64,000 nt of DNA. Source: Streptacidiphilus pinicola. GTDB lineage: Bacteria > Actinomycetota > Actinomycetes > Streptomycetales > Streptomycetaceae. The translations under genes were made by a program, and so were the position numbers. Location: contig NZ_QKYN01000040.1 in the NCBI RefSeq assembly GCF_003258295.1, positions 62,001-126,000 on the forward strand, in the 5' to 3' direction. The notes under the pieces were generated by a model, which made no database searches, had not been told where the DNA came from, and saw only the letters and a list, made by a program, of their open reading frames with translations. The first letter of the stretch is position 1. Each line of letters opens with the position of its first letter. This document shows positions 8,046-20,596 of the stretch, one piece after another.

Positions 8046-8990
8046 CTACTCCTCCGCGGCCACCGCCGCGGCGGGCGCGTTGCCCACCCCGGCCGAGCCG
8101 GTCGCCGCGCCGCCGGCGACGCCCTCGACCAAGTGGCGCTGCAGGACGGCGAAGACGACCAGGATCGGTGCGGCGACGATCACCGTCGCCGCGGCGATCA
8201 GCGGCCACTGCGTGGTGTGCTCGCCGAAAAAGCCGTACAGACCCCGGGTGACCGGCCACAGGGTGGAGTCGCTGAGCATGATCAGCGGCAGGATCAGGTT
8301 GTTCCAGGAGGCCACGAAACCGAAGATGGCGAAGGTGGCCAGGGCCGGCTTCATCTGCGGCAGGATGATGGTGAAGACGAAGCGGAAGTAGCCACAGCCG
8401 TCCATCGCCGCCGCCTCGTCCAACTCCCGTGGGATGGTCTTGATGTAGCCCACGAAGAAGAAGAACCCGGCGCCGGTCAGCGAGGTCAGGATCAGGTAGC
8501 CGACCTGGTTGTCGTACAGCCCCAGCTTCTGCGCCTCACCGAACAGCGGGATCAGACCGGCGGGCAGGAACCCGGAGAAGACGAAGAAGCCGTAGAGCAG
8601 GTTGGAACGGCGGAACCAGCCCCGGGAGATGGGGAAGGCCAGGAACACGCCGAGGATCAGCGTGAGGACGTCCGGGACCACCGCGTAAAGCAGCGAGTTG
8701 ACCATCTCGGTGCCGAAGTCGCCCTGGCTCCACGCCGCGCTGAAGTTGCTCAGCGTCCACGGGTGCGGCAGTCCGGTCGGGTCCTTGAGGAACGACGGGT
8801 AGGTCTTGAACGCCTGCAGCAGCAGGTAGACCAGCGGCAGCGCGAACAGGCCCGCCGAGACGGCGAAGCAGAGCAACTGGACGCCGCTCAGCCGCAGCCC
8901 GCGGATCAACCACCGCCGCCGGGCTGCCCGTTGGGCATCGGTCCGCACGGGGGTGTCCCGTAGCAGTCGTGCGGTCTGCGTCGTGGTCAC
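8046..8990 (-). CDS. Carbohydrate ABC transporter permease (MalG-like) of the second importer
   Basis: 314 residues starting at GTG 8990 (VTTTQTARLL), which overlaps the stop of the upstream permease (GTGA). Six membrane spans follow a basic N-terminal tail. The EAA loop reads DEAAAMDGCGYFRFVFTIIL. The C-terminus has an Ala-rich tail ending VAAEE. It partners the MalF-like permease at 8987-9895 and the binding protein at 9904-11262. The importer lacks its own ATPase, as does the first one. Confidence 0.9.
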   Translation of the reverse strand: MTTTQTARLLRDTPVRTDAQRAARRRWLIRGLRLSGVQLLCFAVSAGLFALPLVYLLLQAFKTYPSFLKDPTGLPHPWTLSNFSAAWSQGDFGTEMVNSLLYAVVPDVLTLILGVFLAFPISRGWFRRSNLLYGFFVFSGFLPAGLIPLFGEAQKLGLYDNQVGYLILTSLTGAGFFFFVGYIKTIPRELDEAAAMDGCGYFRFVFTIILPQMKPALATFAIFGFVASWNNLILPLIMLSDSTLWPVTRGLYGFFGEHTTQWPLIAAATVIVAAPILVVFAVLQRHLVEGVAGGAATGSAGVGNAPAAAVAAEE

Positions 8991-9895
8991 AGCGACACCT
9001 CCCGTCGCCGCAGCGCCCACAGCAGCACGCCGCCGATCACCGCGGTCAGCACGAACTGGACCATCGCCAGCATGGAGCCGAGGCCGAGGTCGGGGTTGAC
9101 CCCGAAGGCCGTGTTGAACATGAACATCCCCAGCGTCTGGGTGTGGTACTGGCCCTGGGTGAGCACCAGGATCAGGGCATACTCGCCCAGGCTGCCCATC
9201 ACCGTCAGAAAGACGTTGACGGTGGTGGAGGGGGCCAGCAGCGGCCAGGTGATCTTCCAGAAGCGCCGGATCGCCCCGGCGCCGTCCAGCGAGGCGGCCT
9301 CGTAGACCTCCGGCGGGATGCGCCGCAGGCCGGCGATGTAGACCAGCATCGTGTAGCCGGAGAACATCCAGACGTTGACCAGGACGATCAGCCAGATCGC
9401 CAGGTTGGAGTCGCCGAGGAAGGAGCTGTAGCCGCCGATCACCGAGTGGTAGACGGCCTCGGCCGGGCCGCTGCTCGGGTCGAGCAGCAGCGAGAAGAGG
9501 ACGCCGACGATGGTGACCGAGAAGACCTGCGGCATGAAGATCAGCGCTCGGTACAGGCCGTAGCCGAAGCGCCGGCGCTGCAGCAGCAGCGCCAGGCCCA
9601 GCCCGAGGCCGATCTGCAGCACCGTCACCCCGCCCACGTACTCGAGCGTGGTGACGACGGCCTGGGAGAGCTGCGAGTAGTTGCTGGTGAACATGTCCCG
9701 GTAGTTGCACAGCCCGCAGAAGGTCATCGGCGTGCCGGGCAGCCCCGAGTAGGTGGTGAAGGAGTAGTAGACGGTGGCCAGCGAGGGGTAGAGCCCGAAG
9801 ACCAGCCAGCCGAGGCTGGGGACCGCGACGGAGAGCCAGGGGATCCAGCGCCTGGTCCGCCGGGTGCCGAAGGGGCAGGTGGTGGACGACGACAC
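8987..9895 (-). CDS. Carbohydrate ABC transporter permease (MalF-like) of the second importer
   Basis: 302 residues starting at GTG 9895 (VSSSTTCPFGTRRTRRWIPW), 8 nt after the stop of the binding-protein gene. Six hydrophobic segments are visible, with the EAA loop YEAASLDGAGAIRRFWKITW. The short periplasmic loop after helix 1 carries CGLCNY. It is translationally coupled to the downstream permease. A much longer open frame extends upstream, but it runs antiparallel through the binding-protein gene and is not real. Confidence 0.9.
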   Translation of the reverse strand: MSSSTTCPFGTRRTRRWIPWLSVAVPSLGWLVFGLYPSLATVYYSFTTYSGLPGTPMTFCGLCNYRDMFTSNYSQLSQAVVTTLEYVGGVTVLQIGLGLGLALLLQRRRFGYGLYRALIFMPQVFSVTIVGVLFSLLLDPSSGPAEAVYHSVIGGYSSFLGDSNLAIWLIVLVNVWMFSGYTMLVYIAGLRRIPPEVYEAASLDGAGAIRRFWKITWPLLAPSTTVNVFLTVMGSLGEYALILVLTQGQYHTQTLGMFMFNTAFGVNPDLGLGSMLAMVQFVLTAVIGGVLLWALRRREVSL

Positions 9896-9903
9896 AGATG
9901 CTC

Positions 9904-11262
9904 CTAACCCTTGACGGCGGCCGTGTAGGCGCTCGCCGACTTGTCGAGCGCGGCGGCCAGCGGCTCGGTGCCGAAGGGCAGGGTGTCGGTGAGCGTCGGC
10001 CCGCCCGCCGGGTTGCCGTTGCCGGCGGACGGCGGCAGCCAGGGCAGGGTGGTGCCGATGAAGCCCTGGGCGGCGTGGGTGGTCAGCCAGTCCGTCCACT
10101 TCAGGCTGGGGGTGGGCACGGCCGGCTCGGTGGAGACGGAGCCGGTGGCCTTGATCCAGGCGGCGTAGTTGCTCTGCTGGGTGAAGAAGTCCAGGTACTC
10201 CAGGGCCAGCTTCCGGTGCTTGGCCCAGGTGGGCACCGCCCAGGTCAGGTCCGGGGCCAGGTCGGCCCGGTTCCAGGCAGCGTTGTCTGCGCCGGGGACG
10301 GCGAAGAAGCCGAAGTTGAGCGAGGGGTTGGCCTGGGCGATGGTGTTGCCGTCGAAGGAGCCGTCCACGAAGAAGGGGAAGTCGTCGGCCTTGGTCGCCC
10401 ACACGCCGGAGGCGGTCGCGGCGGGGACGCCGCCCGCGTTGGGCTCGATGTACGACATCACCTCCTCGTAGCGCTTGGCGGCCTCCTGGTAGACCGGGCT
10501 GTTCCAGTTCTGCTGGCCGTTCCAGAACTGCTGGTCGCGCTGCATCCAGACGTTCACAGCCGAGGAGGCGGGCTGGTCCTGCATCAGCAGCTGGTTGTAG
10601 ATGCCGAACCAGATGATGGACTGGTAGCCGTCCTTGCCGGCCACGAAGACCGGGCTGACGCCCTTGGACTTGAGGGTCTTCAGGTCGCCGATGAACTCGT
10701 CGAAGGTGGTGGGTACCGCGAGGCCGTACTTGGCCAGCAGGTCCTTCTTGTAGAACAGGCCGGTGTTGTTGACGTACTCGGCGGTGGTCACGCCGTAGAC
10801 GCCACCCTGGTAGCCCATGGTGAACTTCTGCGTGGCCGGGTCGAAGCGCTGCATGAACGGCTGCGAACTGAGGTCCAGGAACTGCTTGTTGGCCACCAGG
10901 GCGGCCGTGCCGCTCGGCTGGATCTTCGTCGCGGCCGACGGGTACTTGGTCGGGCTCTGCGCGAACTGGGCCAGCACGTCCACGTCCTTGGAGGCCAGCA
11001 GCGAGCTCTGCAGCGCCGGCCAGGCGCCCGCGGTGGTGGGTGCGGTCTGCAGCTTGATCGTGACGCCGGGGTGGGCCTTCTCGAAAGCGGTGTCGATGGC
11101 CTGGGTCGCCTGGACGGCGGCGGGGTTCGTCCACATGGCGACCACAAGGGTGTCCGAGGACGAGCCCGCGCTGCCGCTCCCGCAGGCGGTGAGGCCGGCG
11201 GCAAGGGGAAGACAGGCTGCGACCGCCGCGAGCGGGCGGCGATGACGAAGGATTCTGGCCAT
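9904..11262 (-). CDS. Sugar-binding lipoprotein of the second ABC importer
   Basis: 452 residues. Signal peptide with lipobox AGLTACGSG at residues about 21-29, then a Ser/Gly linker and a family 1 binding domain (VVAMWTNPAAVQATQAIDTA, DVDVLAQFAQ, GGVYGVTTAEYVNNTGLFYK). Aromatic residues are plentiful (IIWFGIYNQ, WNGQQNWNSP), as expected for stacking on sugar rings. GAGGAG lies about 6 nt before the ATG. It is the first gene of the second importer operon and divergent from the GH42-like gene at 11591, which may provide its substrate. Confidence 0.9.
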   Translation of the reverse strand: MARILRHRRPLAAVAACLPLAAGLTACGSGSAGSSSDTLVVAMWTNPAAVQATQAIDTAFEKAHPGVTIKLQTAPTTAGAWPALQSSLLASKDVDVLAQFAQSPTKYPSAATKIQPSGTAALVANKQFLDLSSQPFMQRFDPATQKFTMGYQGGVYGVTTAEYVNNTGLFYKKDLLAKYGLAVPTTFDEFIGDLKTLKSKGVSPVFVAGKDGYQSIIWFGIYNQLLMQDQPASSAVNVWMQRDQQFWNGQQNWNSPVYQEAAKRYEEVMSYIEPNAGGVPAATASGVWATKADDFPFFVDGSFDGNTIAQANPSLNFGFFAVPGADNAAWNRADLAPDLTWAVPTWAKHRKLALEYLDFFTQQSNYAAWIKATGSVSTEPAVPTPSLKWTDWLTTHAAQGFIGTTLPWLPPSAGNGNPAGGPTLTDTLPFGTEPLAAALDKSASAYTAAVKG

Positions 11263-11590
11263 GACGGCTCCTCAGGCAGAAGGGGAGGTCACGGCCGACG
11301 GCGCGGCGCGATGGGCGTCGCCATCGCGGTCCTGGAGTGCCCGAAGTCTCCGTTCCACGTTGCGGGCAGGTCAACCCTTGATGACGGGCAAAGACTTCTC
11401 TGACAGCCAAGACCGTTAACCTGGCCCGACCGAACTTACGTCACCGCAGGTCGGCGCGGACCACACGCGGAATTCGGGGGCAGGTCTTGTCGAACGTAAC
11501 ACTCTTGGAGTTACGTACCCCTCACGCGCTGACGGCGCCCTGGAGAGCACGTCAACCAACCGCCCCTCGGACCCCGGGAAAGGGGAGACG
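11263..11590. other. Divergent regulatory region between the importer and the GH42-like gene
   Basis: 328 nt without a gene. It holds the leader of the leftward importer operon and the promoter/operator of the rightward GH-ROK operon. Besides the full inverted repeat at 11494-11516, related half-sites are visible: CTTACGT at 11435-11441 and the palindrome GTTAAC at 11415-11420. A weak minus-strand TTGACC (11374-11369) might serve the importer, but no good -10 follows. Confidence 0.5.
11487..11516 (+). promoter_or_regulatory. Candidate promoter with overlapping operator ACGTAAC-N9-GTTACGT
   Basis: TTGTCG (11487-11492), an 18-nt spacer and TTACGT (11511-11516) resemble a vegetative promoter about 75 nt ahead of the GH gene. 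A perfect 7-bp inverted repeat with a 9-nt spacer (11494-11516) covers the spacer and the -10 box, so a bound protein would block RNA polymerase. The natural candidate is the transposase-ROK fusion encoded by the second gene of this operon. Confidence 0.5.
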
Positions 11591-13873
11591 ATGCCGCGCA
11601 CGGTTCGACGCGGAGCGATACCACTGCTCTGCTGCGCCCTCGCCACCACCGTGTTCGCCACCACCACGGCGCACGCCAGCCCGACACCCGCACCGGACCC
11701 ACAGAGCAAGAAGCACGACGGCGGCAGCCCGTCGACCTACTGGGCCACCCAGTTCCAGTTCGACAACAACGGCACGCCCTGGACCACCGCGACCTTCGCG
11801 GAGCTCAAGGCCAAGGGCGTCGACCGCGCCGAGATCAACATGCCCTGGTCCAAGATCGAGCCCAGCCGCGGCACCTTCGACTTCTCCGAGCTGGACCAGG
11901 AGCTCGCCGCCGCGGCCGCCGAGGGCGTGAAGCTCGTCCCGATCTTCTGGTCCTCCGGCTGGCGCGGCAGCCCGGCGAGCTGGATCACCGACTTCGAGGT
12001 GACCAACACCGGCGCCAAGGGCGTCGCGCCCGCCTGGTGGGACCTGACCCAGCAGCAGGACTACTTCACCTACGTCACCACCACCCTGACGCACATCGCG
12101 CACAGCACGGGCTTCGGCGGCGCGTTCATGGACTACGGCCACACCGACGCGCAGTGGCTCGAGAGCTCGGGCTCGGGCGGCTGGGCGCCCGCCGACATCG
12201 CCTACTTCCGCGCGAGCTGGCTCCCGGCCACCTACGGCACGATCGCGGCGTTCAACGCCAAGAACGGCACGACGTACACCTCATTCGCGCAGGTGCCGGC
12301 CGCCGTCCCCGGCGCACCGCTGGCCGGCGTCTACCAGGCGTTCCGCGAGTGGAGCGTGCAGGACACCTACGACCGGCTCACCGCCGCCGCCCGCCGGATC
12401 ACCTCCGCGCCGCTCTACTACTACTTCGGCGGGCACATCTCCAACGCGCCCCAGCTGGGCAACCTCCCCGACGTCTTCTTCTCTCTGGCGCGCAAGTACG
12501 GCGTCACCGTGGTCGAGGACGCGGCCAACTCCAACGGCCTGAGCCTGCTCTTCGGCAGCCTGGGCCGTGCCTACCGCGTCCCGGTCGCCCAGGAGTGGAC
12601 GGTGACGGCCGACGACTCGCTGCTGCCGGCGGAGGCCTCGCTCTGGCTCTCCGACTACGCGATGACCCTGCCCACCGGCGGCGGTGAGGACTTCTTCATC
12701 CACGACGGCACCAGCAAGGACGTGGTCGGCTTCCCCATCTTCACCTCCTGGCTGCCGGTGCTCCAGAAGCTGTCCGGCTCCTACCCGACGCAGCCGGTGG
12801 CCGTGTACATCGACTACTCCCAGGCGCGCGGCAACACCGGCGGCGGCACCCTGAGCGGCGTGGAGAACAGCATCGGCGCGCTCTGGGCCGGCCACCAGGC
12901 CGGGTTCTCCGTGGTCACCAGCGAGGAGATCGCGAACCACGCGGACAGCCTGGCCCACTACCGCGCCGTGCTGCCGATGAACGGCGTCGACGCGAACCTG
13001 GCGGCCTACCAGAAGAACGGCGGGACGCTGCTGACCAGCCCCGCGCAGTTCGACCAGGCTGTGCCCGCCTACGCCGACCTGACCAGCCAGCACGCGCTGC
13101 AGGTCGTCCCCGCGACGGCCGCCGACCACCGCAGCGCCTCGCTCACCGTGGGCGAGGTCAACGCCTCCTTCGGCTACACCGGGTCGGTGACGCTCCATCC
13201 GAACGGGCTGAACCTCGCCCCCGGCAGCTACCACGTGGTCGACGCGCTCAGCGGCCAGGTGCCCGCGCAGGCGCTGCTCGCCGACGGCAGCGTCTGCGTG
13301 CCCGTCACCATGGGCCCGGCGCGGCTCGACCAGTGGTCGCTGCTGCCCGGCGCCGCACCGGCCGGCACCCCCGTCCCGGCCACCTGCCCGGTTACGGCGG
13401 GCGGCGCGACGAGCATCTCCGCCACGGCCGGTCAGACCGGCGGCGGCGTGAAGGTCCTCAGCGTCGGCTCCACCGGCCTGGGCGCCGACGGCAACCTCAC
13501 CCTGGTCACGCAGGGCGGCCGCGCCGCCTACCAGACCTGGACGAGCGCGCAGAGCGGCGTGGGCCCGGCCAACCTCTACCTGCAGCTCGACCCGTCCAGC
13601 CAGGTGGCGAAGGCCTCGACGGTGACGGTGGACGTCACCTACTGGTCGGTGGCCGGACAGGGCTTCCAGGTGCAGTACGACGCACCCGGCAACGCCTACC
13701 TCGGCGGACCGACCGTGGCCGGCAGCGGCACCGGCAGTTGGCAGACCGCGACCGTCACGCTGACGGGCGCGCAGTTCAACGAGCTGCAGAACCTCTCCGC
13801 CGACCTGCGGCTCTCCGTCACCGATCCCAGCCAACCGCTCTATGTCAGCAACGTGACCCTGTCCGCCGGCTGA
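11591..13873 (+). CDS. Secreted GH42-like glycoside hydrolase with C-terminal beta-sandwich module
   Basis: 760 residues, paralog of the enzyme at 2503. Signal peptide at residues 1-29 (ends TTAHAS). Barrel landmarks are EINMPWSKIEPSRGTFDFSE, LVPIFWSSGWRGSP, YYYFGGH, and AQEWTVTAD with the conserved Glu. GH42-like central motifs are PVAVYIDYSQARGN and GFSVVTSEEI. The last roughly 160 residues have no lectin repeats; instead they show a beta-rich unit (LSVGSTGLGADGNLTLVTQG to YVSNVTLSAG) that looks like a carbohydrate-binding or jelly-roll module. The position of the GH42 acid/base shows MDYG. It is followed after 48 nt by the fusion regulator. Confidence 0.75.
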   Translation: MPRTVRRGAIPLLCCALATTVFATTTAHASPTPAPDPQSKKHDGGSPSTYWATQFQFDNNGTPWTTATFAELKAKGVDRAEINMPWSKIEPSRGTFDFSELDQELAAAAAEGVKLVPIFWSSGWRGSPASWITDFEVTNTGAKGVAPAWWDLTQQQDYFTYVTTTLTHIAHSTGFGGAFMDYGHTDAQWLESSGSGGWAPADIAYFRASWLPATYGTIAAFNAKNGTTYTSFAQVPAAVPGAPLAGVYQAFREWSVQDTYDRLTAAARRITSAPLYYYFGGHISNAPQLGNLPDVFFSLARKYGVTVVEDAANSNGLSLLFGSLGRAYRVPVAQEWTVTADDSLLPAEASLWLSDYAMTLPTGGGEDFFIHDGTSKDVVGFPIFTSWLPVLQKLSGSYPTQPVAVYIDYSQARGNTGGGTLSGVENSIGALWAGHQAGFSVVTSEEIANHADSLAHYRAVLPMNGVDANLAAYQKNGGTLLTSPAQFDQAVPAYADLTSQHALQVVPATAADHRSASLTVGEVNASFGYTGSVTLHPNGLNLAPGSYHVVDALSGQVPAQALLADGSVCVPVTMGPARLDQWSLLPGAAPAGTPVPATCPVTAGGATSISATAGQTGGGVKVLSVGSTGLGADGNLTLVTQGGRAAYQTWTSAQSGVGPANLYLQLDPSSQVAKASTVTVDVTYWSVAGQGFQVQYDAPGNAYLGGPTVAGSGTGSWQTATVTLTGAQFNELQNLSADLRLSVTDPSQPLYVSNVTLSAG

Positions 13874-13921: not shown

Positions 13922-16087
13922 GTGCACCACCTCCACTCCGACGCCCCCGCCACCGGCACCGTGCCGCCCGCCGACGGACGCGAGACGCTGCGGCGGTGGG
14001 CCGAGGGGGGCGGTCCCCTGGCGATCCGCGCCTCGATCGTGCTGCTCGCCGCCCAGGGGCTCTCCCCCAGCGACATCTCCCGGCAGCTCGGTGTCTCGCG
14101 GCAGACGGTCACGACCTGGAGACAGCGGTACGCCGCCGAGGGCGTCGAGGGGCTGCGGGACCGGGCCCGCGCCGGGCGGCCGGTGGAGATCGACGAGGCG
14201 GAGATCGTCGTCGGCATCCTGACGGCCCCCGCCGACGACCGGAGCTCGCGGCTGCTGGCCCGTCGGCTCGGCTGCTCGCACACCGTCATCGCGGAGACCC
14301 GCCGCCGCTGGAACCTGACCGGCAGTCACCTGGGCCTGCCCGCGATCCCGCTGCACCCCGCCCTGCCGCCGGCCGACCTGTGGACGGTGGGCCTGCATCT
14401 CGATCCGCAGTGCACCCTGCTGGTGCTGGCCGGGCGCAGCGGCCCGCCGATGCCGCCCGCGCCAGGACGGCGGGCCGACTCCTACGCGCTGTCCACCGTC
14501 AGCTCCGCCATGACGGACGCGGTGACGGTCGCGGCGCAGCTCGTGGCGGAGGTGCCCGCGCAGGGCCCGGCGCCGGAGCGCGGCGGCGCCGCCGGGTTCC
14601 TGGACTCGGTGCGGCGCGTCCATCCGCATCCGGACCTGCACATCGTCGTCCTGCGTGCGGCGTCCGGCGCGGACGACGTCACCGAACTGGGCCGGGCGCG
14701 CGGCATCTCGGTGCACCACATCCCCCGACACACGACCGAGGTCTCGTTCCTGCGCGCCGTGCTCGCCCTCGACGCCACGCGGCACCCGGAGTCCTCGACG
14801 CGGGTCCTGCTCGACCTCGCGGCGGCCCTCGCCGGGTACACCGAGAGCGGCGGGCTCTCCCGGGTCCAGTGGGTGCGCGAGCCGCTGCCGACAACGGCCG
14901 ACACCCGGCTTCCGACGCCGCCCCCCGGAACGGGCCCCGCGGCCGGCGGCGGGGCCAACCACATCGACCTCGGCTCGTTCAACGAGTGCGTGGTGATCGA
15001 GACGGTCCGGCTGGCGGGCACGGTCACCCGCGGCGAGATCGCCGAACGCACCCGGCTGACCCAGCAGTCCGTCTCCCGGATCGCCCGCTCGCTGATCCAG
15101 CGCGGGCTGCTGGTCGAGGAGCGGCCACGCCACTCGTCGATCGGCAAGCCCAGCAGCCCCGTCCGGCTGCGCGACGGGGCGGCGCACGCGCTCGGCATCC
15201 ACATCGACCCGAACGTGCTGACGGCCGTACTGGTCGACCTCTCCGGCCGGATCGTGGCCCGCCACGCGGAGCCGATCACGGCCGATCCGCGCCCCGGCGT
15301 GGTCGTGGGCCAGATCGCCGCCCTGGGCGAGACGGTGCTCGCGCAGGCCGGGCCCGGGCGCTGGGAGGACGGCTTCCTCGGGATCGGCGTGGCGACTCCG
15401 GGCCCGGTGGACACCGTCTCCGGGACGGTGCTGGACCCGCCGCTGATGTCGGCCCTGCGCGACGTCCCGCTGCGCACCCTGCTGGAGCGGCGCTTCTCCT
15501 GTCCGATCGTGATCGAGAAGGACTGCTCCGCGGCGGCAGTCGGCGAGCGCTGGATCGGGCGGGAGAGCCGCGCCTGCGACTTCGTCTACCTCTACCTCGG
15601 GACGGGCGTCGGCTCCGGGCTGTTCCTGAACGGCGACCTCTACCGCGGACTGACCGCCAACGCCGGCGAGTTCGGCCAGCTCTGCGCGGTGACCCTGGGC
15701 CGCTTCGACCCCGACGGGCGGCCGGAGATCCTCCCGGAGTGCAACCCCGGGAGCTACTCCGGCCAGGAGCCCTCCCGTGTGGTGGGGCGCCAGCGGACGC
15801 GGCTGACGGTCCCCCAGGCGGCGCGGGCCATCGGCAAGGGCGTGCTGTCCGTGATCGACCTGCTCGACCTCGGCCTGGTCGTCATCGGCGGCCCGTTCTT
15901 CACCGGGGACGTGGCCGACGTCTACCTCAATGAGATCGAGCACGCGGTCAACGCCTACCCGACCGCGCGGCGGCTGCGCCGCGTCCGCGTCGAACGCTCC
16001 GTCAACAGCAGTGAGGCGGTGGCGGTCGGCGCCGCCTCGACCATCTTCCACTCGACCTTCACGCCGCGGCTCCGCCGCAACCCCTGA
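13922..16087 (+). CDS. ROK-family regulator fused to a catalytically dead IS630-type transposase
   Basis: 721 residues, about twice the usual ROK length; GTG start with GAAGGGA upstream. Residues about 15-75 read like the first IS630 helix-turn-helix (LAIRASIVLLAAQGLSPSDI, SRQLGVSRQTVTTWRQRY), followed by GLRDRARAGRP and a second HTH (SRLLARRLGCSHTVIAETRR). Residues about 150-310 follow the IS630 DDE fold (LWTVGLHLDPQCTLLVLA; LHIVVLRAAS; TEVSFLRAVLALD), but the three acidic positions are Gly/Arg-like, Arg and Leu. Residues about 350-415 are the ROK winged helix (RGEIAERTRLTQQSVSRI), then the sugar kinase fold with LYLGTGVGSGL. The zinc motif CxCGxxGC is absent. Probably a sugar-responsive regulator of the GH gene upstream. 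Confidence 0.8.
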   Translation: MHHLHSDAPATGTVPPADGRETLRRWAEGGGPLAIRASIVLLAAQGLSPSDISRQLGVSRQTVTTWRQRYAAEGVEGLRDRARAGRPVEIDEAEIVVGILTAPADDRSSRLLARRLGCSHTVIAETRRRWNLTGSHLGLPAIPLHPALPPADLWTVGLHLDPQCTLLVLAGRSGPPMPPAPGRRADSYALSTVSSAMTDAVTVAAQLVAEVPAQGPAPERGGAAGFLDSVRRVHPHPDLHIVVLRAASGADDVTELGRARGISVHHIPRHTTEVSFLRAVLALDATRHPESSTRVLLDLAAALAGYTESGGLSRVQWVREPLPTTADTRLPTPPPGTGPAAGGGANHIDLGSFNECVVIETVRLAGTVTRGEIAERTRLTQQSVSRIARSLIQRGLLVEERPRHSSIGKPSSPVRLRDGAAHALGIHIDPNVLTAVLVDLSGRIVARHAEPITADPRPGVVVGQIAALGETVLAQAGPGRWEDGFLGIGVATPGPVDTVSGTVLDPPLMSALRDVPLRTLLERRFSCPIVIEKDCSAAAVGERWIGRESRACDFVYLYLGTGVGSGLFLNGDLYRGLTANAGEFGQLCAVTLGRFDPDGRPEILPECNPGSYSGQEPSRVVGRQRTRLTVPQAARAIGKGVLSVIDLLDLGLVVIGGPFFTGDVADVYLNEIEHAVNAYPTARRLRRVRVERSVNSSEAVAVGAASTIFHSTFTPRLRRNP

Positions 16088-16106: not shown

Positions 16107-17312
16107 CTACTTCAGCAGCAGCGCGCCCGGCTGCGCCGACAGGGCGCCGTCCAGCACCAGCGACGCGGCCCCGACCGCGGCGACGTTCTCTCCCAAGGTG
16201 GTCGAGACGACCGCGGTCGAGTGCGTCGCCTTGACGAAGGGGCTGCTCGCGACCATCGGCTCCACCGTACGCAGCACCCGCTCGCCCAGCACCTCCCAGA
16301 CGGGACCTCCGAAGACCACCGTGTCGACGTCCAGCAGCGTCGCCGCCGCGCACACGCCCCGGCCGATCCGGACCGACAGCCGCTCCAGGACGCCGTCGGC
16401 GGACGCGTCCCCCGAGGCGGACAGCTCCGCGAGGCGCCGCAGCCCGCGCTGCGCGTCCGCCGGGTTGACCACCGTGTACTCGGCGCCCAGCACGCCGAGG
16501 GCGACCGCCTCCTCCACCAGCGTCCGGGTGGAGCAGGCCGCGCCGAGGCCGCCGATCTCCCCCGCGTTGCCCGAAGTCCCGCGCAGCACTGTGTCGTCGA
16601 CCACCAGGCCCATGCCGGTGCCGGTGCCGAAGTAGAAGAAGAGCAGGTTCCGGCTGGCGGTCGCGGCGCCCGTCCAGCGTTCCGCCACCACCGCCGCCGT
16701 CACGTCCTTGTCCAGCACCGCCGGCAGGCCGGTGGCCTCGCTCAGCCGGTCACGCAGCGGGTAACGGCCCCAGCCGGGCAGCTCCGGGGGGTCCACCACC
16801 CAGCCGGCGGCGGCGTCGATCGGGCCGGGCGCGGCGATGCCCAGGCCCAACACCCGGTCGCGGTCGGCGACCGAGCCGTCCAGCAGCGCGGACACGGAGG
16901 CGGCCATGTCGGCGGCGATCTTGTCGGTGTCGCCGCCGCTCGGCGTGCTCTGGCTGCGCTGGGCCACGACCGTGCCCAACAGGTCCACCACGACGCAGGT
17001 GATGACAGCCGGATCGAGATGCACGCCGACGGCGTAGAGGGAGTCCGGCACGACCTCCAGCAGCGTGCGGGGCTTGCCGCTGCCACTGCTCTGCCGACCG
17101 GACTCGCGGATCAGGCCCTGGTCGAGCAGCCGACGGGTGATGTTGGAGACGGTCTGCGGCGACAGGCCGGTGGCCTTGGCCAGCTCCACCCGGCTCAGGC
17201 CGGACGGCTGGCGCCGGATCGCGTCCAGGACCACGGACTCGTTGAAGTCCCCCACCCGCGGCAGATTGGTCCCGCGCCGGATCGGCGACTGCGCGTCGGA
17301 ACCCGCCCTCAT
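16107..17312 (-). CDS. ROK-family transcriptional repressor
   Basis: 401 residues from ATG 17312 (MRAGSDAQSPIRRG); an ATG at 17366 is an alternative but would place the start inside a palindromic operator. Residues about 20-75 form the MarR-like HTH (RVELAKATGLSPQTVSNITR, GSGKPRTLLE). The rest is the ROK fold (YAVGVHLDPAVITCVVVDLL, GLGIAAPGPID, VLDKDVTAAVVAERW, FFYFGTGTGMGL). The zinc-binding CxCGxxGC of ROK kinases is replaced (GEIGGLGAACSTR), so it is more likely a sensor than an enzyme. It is convergent with the fusion regulator (19-nt gap) and lies just beyond the end of the GH38 operon, which it may control. Confidence 0.88.
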   Translation of the reverse strand: MRAGSDAQSPIRRGTNLPRVGDFNESVVLDAIRRQPSGLSRVELAKATGLSPQTVSNITRRLLDQGLIRESGRQSSGSGKPRTLLEVVPDSLYAVGVHLDPAVITCVVVDLLGTVVAQRSQSTPSGGDTDKIAADMAASVSALLDGSVADRDRVLGLGIAAPGPIDAAAGWVVDPPELPGWGRYPLRDRLSEATGLPAVLDKDVTAAVVAERWTGAATASRNLLFFYFGTGTGMGLVVDDTVLRGTSGNAGEIGGLGAACSTRTLVEEAVALGVLGAEYTVVNPADAQRGLRRLAELSASGDASADGVLERLSVRIGRGVCAAATLLDVDTVVFGGPVWEVLGERVLRTVEPMVASSPFVKATHSTAVVSTTLGENVAAVGAASLVLDGALSAQPGALLLK

Positions 17313-17360
17313 GCTCGTCAACCTGCGCCTCTTCGCCTCCGTGGACTGCCGTCCGCCCGC

Positions 17361-17431: not shown

Positions 17432-20400
17432 TCACCCCGGCTCGCCGCCGTCGGCGGCCTCCGCACCTTCGGGCTGCGCCGGGCGCAGGCGCAGCGTCAG
17501 GATCTGGAAGGGCCGCAGCCGCAGGCGGAGCGCGTCGGCGCCGTCCGGCAGGACGGCCGGGCGCGGTTCGGCCGCGCCGGGCGTGCCCGGCGCGGGCTGG
17601 GGCCACGGCTGCTCCAGCAGGTCGCAGTCCCAGGCGGCGGCGAGCGGGAAGCCGGCGGTCAGGCGGGCCAGGGCCGTGCCGCCGCCCGCCTCGTAGAGGC
17701 GCACCACCACGTCGCCGCTGCGGTCGTCGGCCAGCTTGACCGACTCCACCACGACCGCGTCGTTGTCGAGCGCGACCAGCGGAGCGGCCGCCACGGCGGC
17801 GGGGCGCAGCGGCAGGGACAGCGCGTAGCCACCGGCGACGGCCTGACCGACCCCGGCTCCCGGGGCGAAGGCGTAGCTGAACCGGTGATGGCCGCGGTCG
17901 GCCTGCGGGTCGGGGCTGTGCGGGGCGCGCAGCAGCGAGAGCCGCACGGTGGTCGTGGTGCCGCCGTCCGCACGGGTGTCGCGGCGCAGGTCGTGGCCGT
18001 AGGTGGAGTCGGTGAGCAGCACGGCTCCCCAGCCGTGTTCGCCGACGTGGATCCAGCGGTGGGCCCACAGTTCGAACCGGGCGGCGTCCCAGCTGGTGTT
18101 CTCGTGGGTGGGACGGCGCACGTGGCCGAACTGGATCTCGGCGCTCTCGTGCTCGGCGTGGACGTCGATCGGCCAGGCCGCCTTGAGCACGGTGTCGCGC
18201 TCCTGCCAGTCGACCTCGTTCCGGACCGTCAACCACCCACTCTCTGCCGCGAGTTCGAGGTGCTGGATGAGGCGGGAGGCGCCGTGGGCGCGCTCGACGC
18301 GAACGGAGGCCAGCAGCGGTCCCTCGTCGACGAGGGTGACGCTCTCGGCGTGGTCGAGGTCGCGGACGGTGTCGCGGTAGTAGGAGTCGAGGTTCCAGGC
18401 CGACCAGAGGTTCGGGTCGTCGGGGTGGATCTGGAGCAGGTTGCCCGCCGTGCCAGGTGCGACGGCCTCGCGGTCGGCGGCGTGGTCATAGGCGGAGGTC
18501 ACCAGGCCGCGGTGGTCGACGACGACGCGGAGCCTGCCGTTGTCCAGGACGTAGCCGCCGTCCTGCGCGCGGGCGGTGACCGGGCTCGCCGGAATCGAAG
18601 CGGTGCCGGAGCCGAGGGCGGGCGTCTCGGCCAGGACGGCGGTCCTGCCGTCCGCGAGCAGTTGGCCGCCGGCCACCGCCTGGCCCGGATGGAGGAAGGC
18701 GACCTCGCGGCGTGGCAGCGGCCCGCTGTTCAGGAACCCCGGACCGCCCGGCAGCTGCGCCACCGCGTCGGCGACGATCTCCTCCAGCTCCCCGTGGATC
18801 TCCCCGTACTCGCGCTCGGCCTGCTGGTGCACCCAGGCGATGGACGAGCCGGGCAGGATGTCGTGGAACTGGTTGAGCAGCACCCGCTGCCACAGGCGTT
18901 CAAGCCGCTCGTAGGGGTAGGCGGCGCCGGCACGGACGGCCGCGGTCGCGGCCCACAGCTCAGCCTCGCGCAGCAGCGCCTCGGCGCGGCGGTTGCCGCG
19001 CTTGGTGCGGGCCTGGCTGGTGTAGGTGCCGCGGTGGTTCTCCAGGTACAGCTCCCCCCGCCAGACCGGGAGCCGCTCGTGCTCGGCCGCCGCCGCGGCG
19101 AAGAAGGCGTCCGGCGACTCGACCACCACGCGGGGCGAGCCCTCCAGGTCCCGCAGACGGCGGGCCTTCTCCAGCATCGAGGGGGTGGGCCCGCCACCGC
19201 CGTCACCGTGGCCGAACGGCGCGAGCGACCGCGAGGCCACCCCCTTCTCGGCGAAGTTACGTTCGGCGTGGGCGAGTTCGGCGCCGGTCAGTTCTGCGTT
19301 GTAGCTGTCGACGGGCGGGAAGTGGGTGAAGACGCGGGAGCCGTCGATGCCCTCCCAGGCGAAGGTGTGGTGCGGCAGCCGGTTGGTCTCGTTCCAGGAG
19401 AGCTTCTGGGTGAGGAACCAGCGTGCCCCGGCGAGTCTGGCCAGTTGCGGGTAGGCGGCGGTGTAGCCGAAGGAGTCGGGCAGCCAGACGCCGGGCTGGT
19501 CGATACCGAACTCCTCGGTGAAGAAGCGGCGGCCATACACCAGTTGGCGGGCCAACGCCTCCCCGCCCGGCAGGTTGCCGTCGGCCTCGACCCACATGCC
19601 GCCGACGGGCGCCCAGGTGCCCGCGGCGACGGCCTTGCGGATGCGCGCGAAGACCTCCGGGTGCTGCTCTTTCATCCACGCGTACTGCTGCGCCGAGGAA
19701 CAGGCGAAGACGAGTTCCGGATACTCCTGGGCGAGGGTGGTGATGTTGGTGAAGGTGCGGGCGCACTTGCGCACGGTCTCGCGCACCGGCCACAGCCAGG
19801 CGGAGTCGATGTGGGCGTGCCCGACCGCCGCGACGGTGTGCGCGGAGGCGTGCGCGGGCTGGGCGAGCACTTGCGCCAGCCGGGCGCGGGCGGCCGCGGC
19901 GGTGCCGGGGACGTCGCCAGGATCGACGGCGTCGGCGGCGCGGCGCAGCGCGTGCAGGATCTCGTGGCGCCGGGTGGAGTGCTCGGGCAGTTCGTGCATC
20001 AGCTCGTCGAGCACCTCGACGTCGTGGATCAGCTGCCAGACCTCCTCCTCCCGCACGGCGATCTCGGCCTGGCCGAGGCGGTAGAGGTGCTCGGTGCCGG
20101 CCGTCTCGCGCGAGCCGTAGTGGGTGTTGCGGCCGGCGCTGCCCACGATCCAGGGGTTGGCGGCGAGTTCCACCAGCAGCTCGACGTCCTCGCCCGCGGT
20201 GGCGGAGCAGCTGAGCAGCACGCTGCGGTGGTAGGGGTGCAGGCCCTGCATCGGTGAGCCGTTGGCGTCGTGGATCAGGCCCTCGGCCTGGCCGCCGGGG
20301 CCGCGGCTGAGGTCGAAGCCGAGGTCGAAGACGGCCTCGACACGGCGGCCCGCCCACTCCTCGGGGATCCGCGCCCGCGCCCGCAGCCAGGTCGTCGACC

Positions 20401-20596
20401 AGGGGCCGCCCCAGCTGGAGCCGAGCGCGAAGGGCTGGTAGTCGGCCGTCAACGCCTCGGCGACGGGCACGGGTTCCCCCTCGACCTGCCAGGCGCTCAG
20501 CGTCAGCGGGCGGGGGTGGCTGTGGAGGGCGGGGCGGATCACCCGGTCCAGCAGCTTGCGGATCCGGGTCTCGATGATCCGGCGGTCGTCATGCAC
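17432..20596 (-). CDS. GH38 alpha-mannosidase, distal copy
   Basis: 1054 residues, typical GH38 length, no signal peptide, so cytoplasmic. GTG start at 20596 (VHDDRRIIETRIRKLL). A beta-sandwich N-terminal domain comes first. The catalytic domain has VGHAHIDSAWLWP near residue 262 (metal ligands His, Asp) and WLPDSFGYTAAYPQL near 370, whose Asp is the expected nucleophile. Then follow QFHDILPGSSIAWVH (further metal ligand) and long beta-sheet domains. It is last in the operon and its start overlaps the end of the DUF2264 gene by 8 nt. It probably removes alpha-mannosyl units from imported oligosaccharides. A paralog is encoded two genes upstream. Confidence 0.93.
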   Translation of the reverse strand: MHDDRRIIETRIRKLLDRVIRPALHSHPRPLTLSAWQVEGEPVPVAEALTADYQPFALGSSWGGPWSTTWLRARARIPEEWAGRRVEAVFDLGFDLSRGPGGQAEGLIHDANGSPMQGLHPYHRSVLLSCSATAGEDVELLVELAANPWIVGSAGRNTHYGSRETAGTEHLYRLGQAEIAVREEEVWQLIHDVEVLDELMHELPEHSTRRHEILHALRRAADAVDPGDVPGTAAAARARLAQVLAQPAHASAHTVAAVGHAHIDSAWLWPVRETVRKCARTFTNITTLAQEYPELVFACSSAQQYAWMKEQHPEVFARIRKAVAAGTWAPVGGMWVEADGNLPGGEALARQLVYGRRFFTEEFGIDQPGVWLPDSFGYTAAYPQLARLAGARWFLTQKLSWNETNRLPHHTFAWEGIDGSRVFTHFPPVDSYNAELTGAELAHAERNFAEKGVASRSLAPFGHGDGGGGPTPSMLEKARRLRDLEGSPRVVVESPDAFFAAAAAEHERLPVWRGELYLENHRGTYTSQARTKRGNRRAEALLREAELWAATAAVRAGAAYPYERLERLWQRVLLNQFHDILPGSSIAWVHQQAEREYGEIHGELEEIVADAVAQLPGGPGFLNSGPLPRREVAFLHPGQAVAGGQLLADGRTAVLAETPALGSGTASIPASPVTARAQDGGYVLDNGRLRVVVDHRGLVTSAYDHAADREAVAPGTAGNLLQIHPDDPNLWSAWNLDSYYRDTVRDLDHAESVTLVDEGPLLASVRVERAHGASRLIQHLELAAESGWLTVRNEVDWQERDTVLKAAWPIDVHAEHESAEIQFGHVRRPTHENTSWDAARFELWAHRWIHVGEHGWGAVLLTDSTYGHDLRRDTRADGGTTTTVRLSLLRAPHSPDPQADRGHHRFSYAFAPGAGVGQAVAGGYALSLPLRPAAVAAAPLVALDNDAVVVESVKLADDRSGDVVVRLYEAGGGTALARLTAGFPLAAAWDCDLLEQPWPQPAPGTPGAAEPRPAVLPDGADALRLRLRPFQILTLRLRPAQPEGAEAADGGEPG

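Follow-up and report, generated by a model that had tools for sequence, protein, structure and literature searches.

Our analyses indicate that a gene in the 64,000-nucleotide stretch of the Streptacidiphilus pinicola genome analysed here (the window) probably encodes a local repressor of glycoside-use genes that was made by the capture of an inactivated transposase. According to this proposal, a ROK regulator in an ancestor of these actinobacteria would have acquired an inactivated IS630-family transposase as an in-frame N-terminal extension, and the fused protein would locally repress a glycoside-utilisation locus. This locus includes GH38, a glycosidase resembling GH42, genes for ABC sugar uptake and, in most cases, the operon of the regulator itself. 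The protein would sit on one operator in the -35/-10 spacer and shut the promoter, which would open when a sugar released by the enzymes of the locus binds the ROK domain. The captured helix-turn-helix units (HTHs) would have been retained as extra DNA-binding units, and the DDE-like part would be a decaying remnant.

The open reading frame and its phase are as the first-pass annotation had given them (Table 1), and the two IS630-type HTH units that it described ahead of a ROK winged helix and sugar-binding fold are recovered, like the latter, by family profiles, the IS630-type HTH families covering residues 34-120. Pfam HTH_29 matches residues 36-95 (E 1.8e-19) and HTH_32 residues 62-120, HTH_50 falling below its cut-off at residues 107-131. 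An IS630 profile match does lie in the first 350 residues, the half that had been read as a transposase: the NCBIfam model NF033545 aligns best over residues 36-94 with E 3.6e-18, its 66 bits against a curated 100 placing the fusion protein under the NCBIfam curated score. A MarR-like winged helix (Pfam MarR_2, residues 358-403) immediately precedes the ROK domain, which PF00480 matches with E 5.3e-27 and a best stretch over residues 425-588. Three DNA-binding units had been claimed for the protein, a count that holds as far as these family hits and structure prediction carry it. The zinc cysteine motif CxCGxxGC is typical of many ROK proteins and is not taken here as required. Unlike in such typical proteins, it is not visible by eye after AGEFGQLCA in the fusion translation, and judged by this motif the fusion would carry a divergent ROK domain; by eye, the same motif is not visible in either ROK domain of the window (15182-16087 and 16107-17342). 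By domain content, we would class the fusion as a ROK regulator and not as a working IS630 transposase. It is present in a single copy in its own genome.

Table 1. Coordinates of the fusion gene, its parts and its neighbours in the window
Feature	Position	Strand	Basis
IS630-ROK fusion gene	13922..16087	+	single ORF, 721 aa, GTG start; full-length relatives in other genera
Captured HTH1, about residues 32-80	14015..14161	+	Pfam HTH_29/23/28, NCBIfam IS630, AF2 helices
Captured HTH2, about residues 92-131	14195..14314	+	Pfam HTH_32 62-120, sub-threshold HTH_50 107-131, AF2 helices 92-101, 109-116, 120-130
Catalytically dead DDE-like region, about residues 150-322	14369..14887	+	hmmsearch/hhalign to IS630 DDE domains, triad lost, AF2
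Variable linker, residues 323-345	14888..14956	+	20-61 aa in 33 rows; pLDDT <50 at 327-353
ROK winged helix-turn-helix, residues 346-420	14957..15181	+	Pfam MarR_2 358-403; dN/dS 0-0.31 (12 pairs)
ROK domain, residues 421-721, and stop	15182..16087	+	PF00480; dN/dS 0.05-0.17 (12 pairs)
GH42-like glycosidase, first gene after putative operator	11591..13873	+	PF02449 E 7.3e-7
Putative operator ACGTAAC-N9-GTTACGT, divergent promoter region	11494..11516		footprint over 8 loci, matrix, alignment, genome pattern searches
ABC sugar-binding protein, divergent from putative operator	9904..11262	-	PF01547 E 7.8e-20
Two ABC permease genes	8046..9898	-	PF00528 in both
Second ROK regulator, no N-terminal fusion, convergent	16107..17342	-	PF00480 E 4.9e-34 over 411 aa
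GH38 alpha-mannosidase, start not fixed	17432..20500	-	PF01074 E 3.8e-93

The DDE-like middle region, for which an in-frame query returns no Pfam match, was compared with transposases through a profile built from 31 rows of alignment A4, the HTHs being excluded. Against 176 ORFs of at least 250 aa, this profile reaches E 9.7e-10 at best (hmmsearch) and all 12 matches with E ≤0.01 are IS630 transposases; the same ORFs reversed give nothing under E 0.28. Residue-by-residue alignments run collinearly through the DDE domain in the seven best transposases. The eight best matches were chosen for similarity, since they had been fetched by N-half searches, and for transposases retrieved through PF13358, independently of the N half, E is no better than 0.005-0.01. 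With hhalign, the DDE-like region and IS630 DDE domains score 88.6% (E 2.6e-6) against at most 0.5% for 20 column shuffles, and more weakly, 19.6-59.1%, when query and template are exchanged. A reverse search of the fusions with a transposase profile brought no fusion above threshold. In the 297 family genomes, the N half finds IS630-length ORFs aligned over residues 17-276 together with full-length fusions. By profile, we regard the middle region as homologous to IS630 DDE domains.

The AF2 model of the N half (31 rows; mean pLDDT 87.1, pTM 0.74) displays two HTH bundles followed by strands at residues 152-160, 164-172, 238-246 and 263-266 (model number + 18) and helices. A helix without strands occupies the place where the transposase segment TTLFAALDVATG and the residues after it align, and the DDE-like sheet therefore seems reduced. 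Foldseek with this model returned no match at E ≤0.001: the Mos1 transposase comes first (E 1.7e-3, TM 0.16), IstA, CAST/TnsB and Pax proteins also being among the top rows, and with Pax5/Pax6 the pairing involves the HTH portion of the model. VIA-align matches, all with Z <8, are mainly to HTHs and thus uninformative on the DDE fold; IstA has Z 6.2 but an rmsd of 15.2. The full-length AF2 model is poor in ROK (pLDDT 67.8). The two RNase-H-like folds announced by the first-pass annotation are therefore retained only in part: a confident alpha/beta core is predicted in the N half, but with the strands missing at the TTLFAALDVATG alignment and the Foldseek result just given. These same observations, namely the missing Pfam and Foldseek matches and the weak reverse profile scores, together with test ORFs partly picked by N-half similarity, could suggest an HTH module followed by an unrelated middle domain whose resemblance to DDE domains arose by chance. 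We consider this very improbable in view of the collinear alignments with seven transposases, the clean reversed and shuffled controls and the pairwise matches of IS630-length ORFs over residues 17-276.

Homology to the DDE domain is accompanied by loss of its catalytic residues, which had been suspected from the window protein. The catalytic columns were scored on two alignments with 14 transposases, all 14 of which carry D, D and E. Among 33 fusion rows, the first D column holds R in 30, G in two and E in one, the second D column L in 32 and W in one, and the E column R in 27-28 and other residues in 5-6. In five further rows, from a second subfamily (B), the first column shows E once and D once, and the other two columns are free of acids. 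A complete D/D/E triad occurs in none of the 38 fusions, window protein included: the second D and the E are lost in all 38, and the first D column is acidic (E or D) in three. As a side observation, the DDE-like part of L044 seems, from alignment A4, to contain two frame shifts that compensate each other.

The same fusion recurs well beyond the window, beside sugar genes. Scanning an 84,980-species collection with the N-half alignment A1 yielded at least 38 fusion loci in Streptomyces, Streptacidiphilus, Actinacidiphila, Catenulispora, Actinospica and Nonomuraea, a lower bound because the scan rests on two peptide patterns. The main fusion form is present in 21 of 297 drawn family genomes (rows read by eye). 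Subfamily B is present in Streptomyces and in other members of the family, with GH38 in the DNA examined at five of the six loci read (not at L159). The shortest variant, L164 (genome G010), has a 444-aa frame, divergent from GH38, that lacks HTH2 and the DDE part, so that HTH1 is joined to ROK. A phylum search with A1 gave 10 of 396 genomes passing E 1e-25, the listed frames outside the S. pinicola genome being, at 145-436 aa, too short for the fusion. No fusion was found among 72,556 plasmid records, the one match, which covers 25% of the query, being an IS630 transposase. L167 has a frame of 660 aa whose N-half match is weak and in which ROK is not matched, and G066 carries three fusion copies, two with equal score and identity.

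ROK lies in the same frame at the fusion loci except L062, where the frame breaks; in addition, the fusion frame is split in G108, the fusion of L036 runs into masked bases and that of L051 is cut at its end. Such splits, in G108 and L062, might hint at a sequencing error joining two genes, an artefact to which we assign a practically negligible probability: full-length fusion frames in many independent assemblies, including the single-contig genomes G066, G084, G099, G120 and G126, exclude it. The fusions form one clade, supported at 100/99 for 31 rows and at 98/91 when the divergent row L023 is included, with a long-branch warning from the program (alignment A4 was made without L059 and L061, alignment A3 without L036, L051, L062, L066, L068 and L069). 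The best ROK matches among ordinary-looking ROK genes are 33-43% identical. The profile homology of the DDE region, the triad loss in 38 of 38 fusions, the single clade and the conservation across six genera together support the idea, first put forward for the window, that a ROK regulator captured a dead IS630-type transposase.

The fusion gene lies directly behind the glycosidase gene, as first noticed, 48 bases from its end, and the gene order of the window continues after GH38 with a DUF2264 gene (-). Gene context was counted over 35 loci (L032-L065 and L067), setting apart L066, L068 and L069, whose contigs start inside or just before the gene. In 28 of them, GH38 is the same-strand gene immediately upstream; in L035, L042 and L050, it lies downstream, in the gene order of the window. 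At L058, it appeared about 10 kb downstream (L166) once more DNA was read. The DNA examined at L037, L054 and L063 contains no GH38; other glycosidase-like or sugar-oxidoreductase-like genes were seen nearby by eye. Close relatives of the second ROK regulator (79-91% identical) were found within the examined DNA of L035, L041, L042 and L050 only, with another (94.6% identical) 10 kb away in the L058 genome. In the Nonomuraea locus (L041), this second ROK is 79% identical and the fusion N half 41%, a difference that points to a mosaic or horizontally inherited locus.

The divergent promoter region contains the candidate operator, one compact dyad of about 17-23 bp. The inverted repeat that the first-pass annotation had suggested as a target is present as ACGTAAC-N9-GTTACGT, and alignment and matrix place it within a conserved site. 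An alignment of the eight promoter regions that precede the GH42-like gene revealed the block TAACACTCTTGG, followed by TTA in most, which in the window lies at 11497, inside the repeat. Allowing one mismatch at most, 15 of 48 scanned sequences contain it once each and the other 33 lack it. A 22-column matrix built from these 15 sites gives 20 held-out loci scores of 22.6-34.0, second-best scores being ≤5.7. In total, the site is found in 35 of 36 loci (34 of 35 plus the window), with one high score per locus and 20 of the sites held out from the matrix. Most often it precedes the glycosidase gene, and in L037, L054 and L063, the three loci without GH38, it stands directly before the fusion gene. 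The matrix finds no site at L044, whose contig begins 2 kb before the gene, nor at L066, L068 and L069, and its scores are at background for subfamily B and L164, where spacer-placed sequences with a related core were picked by eye. Of the two fusion loci of G066 that were fetched (L192, L193), one has a site scoring 29.3 and the other, at -5.3, no proper site.

In its own genome, the pattern of the site has one match at ≤2 mismatches, which is exact, against two for the reversed control pattern. Among the family genomes it matches 23 of 297 (reversed control, 4 of 297): 20 of the 21 with the fusion, at one match each and with G066 as the exception, and three of the 276 without it. The former count is partly by construction, since the pattern was written from the sites of these same loci; the informative figures on specificity are the three of 276 and the held-out matrix scores. 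One of these three, G075, is a short contig holding the start of the same locus, with GH38 and a binding protein, and the matches in G249 and G269 look like chance. TTGAC, a -35-like box, precedes the site in register at 27 of 35 aligned sites and TTACAT follows most of these, so that the site would fill the spacer of a promoter-like pair, as read by eye. This position, together with the ROK domain and the sugar genes, makes repression relieved by sugar the most likely mode of action. Alternatively, another regulator might read the conserved site and the fusion merely be carried along with the locus: site and locus are inherited together, their co-occurrence by itself does not identify the binder, and a second ROK gene lies at 16107 in the window. 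We find this improbable, as close relatives of that gene accompany, in the DNA examined, only the five loci named above, one of them at a distance of 10 kb, against a site in 34 of 35 loci, and as the site directly precedes the fusion gene itself at the three loci lacking GH38.

Other candidate operators were discarded. Counting dyads before GH38 revealed G+C-rich repeats above a simple null, in related sequences. The CGACGG..CCTGGAG blocks, found twice around the divergent promoter (11285-11560), make too loose a pattern, with many matches. An operator derived from IS ends was also considered, and the nearest multicopy IS630 terminal repeats (L196-L201) share only CTTGGA with the window operator, not above chance at an estimated probability of roughly 0.2. 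A further element, GACTTCTCTGAC, is conserved at 11393.

Binding of the putative operator by the fusion protein could involve its captured HTHs, its ROK winged helix or both, and selection on the parts bears on this choice. In 12 close pairs, dN/dS has a median of 0.11 for HTH1+2 (range 0.01-0.26), 0.32 for the DDE-like part (0.14-0.77) and 0.09 for the ROK core (0.05-0.17), and among the DNA-binding units it is the ROK winged helix that shows the strongest conservation in the majority of pairs. The DDE-like part spans 158-331 aa against 109-112 for the HTHs (33 rows), and SRQT in HTH1 is invariant (31 rows). This part appears relaxed yet mostly under constraint; being the least constrained apart from the linker and missing from one relative (L164), it is a weaker candidate for the ligand or dimer interface that had been guessed. 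Given that the captured HTHs are conserved and that L164 keeps HTH1, we infer that they take part in DNA reading. It is possible, and we propose it tentatively, that a DDE transposase was turned stepwise into the DNA-reading half of a one-promoter, metabolite-sensing repressor whose captured HTHs read the operator, the steps being ROK capture, loss of the catalytic acids, decay of the DDE part and, in one lineage, a deletion leaving HTH1-ROK. Reading of the operator by the ROK winged helix alone, with a transposase half that serves as an oligomerisation or anchoring appendage and has ceased to read sequence, seems rather unlikely. A single compact dyad would suffice for a ROK dimer, and the winged helix is indeed the best conserved unit in most pairs, but the purifying selection on HTH1+2, the invariant SRQT and the HTH1 retained by the minimal relative L164 argue for captured HTHs that read DNA. 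For the ROK regulator RokB of Streptomyces coelicolor, binding to a 28-bp sequence has been reported at novH, where an inverted repeat spans the start codon, and its two sites upstream of rokB are described as having no perfect inverted repeat (PMC4856308).

The fusion resembles ROK regulators (NagC and Mlc, as NCBIfam models, and Streptomyces RokB) in its winged helix, its ROK domain and its place beside sugar genes, and its locus, like novH for RokB as reported, has a dyad-like site near a promoter (PMC4856308). It differs from them by some 345 extra N-terminal residues of transposase origin with two more HTHs. With IS630/Tc1-mariner transposases (NF033545) it shares the paired HTHs and a collinear DDE-like region; unlike them, it has no triad, is joined to ROK and is single copy in its own genome. 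That transcription factors can arise from captured transposases is well documented for animals and plants and, to our knowledge and from the literature matches listed, far less so for bacteria. The Pax paired domain is transposase-derived, and TldR proteins descended from TnpB. Reports from eukaryotes describe the capture of a Tc1/mariner HTH by F-box genes (PMC12062965) and transposon-derived transcription factors of metazoans (PMC10027918); these proteins and Pax likewise join a transposase HTH to a host domain, whereas our fusion is bacterial and has a sugar sensor as partner, one local operon and a candidate site. TldR, reported as RNA-guided transcription factors (PMC13418256), are also transposon-derived proteins turned bacterial regulators, putatively so in our case; unlike them, the fusion carries the HTHs of a DDE transposase protein and a ROK domain. 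No transposase-ROK fusion was among the matches listed in open-licence PMC literature. The fusion looks like a mobile element turned host control protein and is a candidate regulator for alpha-mannosidase loci in actinobacteria. With the fusion, its decay series, likely targets and a candidate operator in hand, one protein and one probe suffice to test how the DNA-binding module of a mobile element is rewired to a promoter of its host.

Four stand-alone IS630-like ORFs of Streptomycetaceae (L026, L027, L028 and L029) also have decayed catalytic regions, with no ROK in frame. We read them as possible further domesticated transposases or pseudogenes, and L026 groups weakly with the fusions as their sister (86/85).
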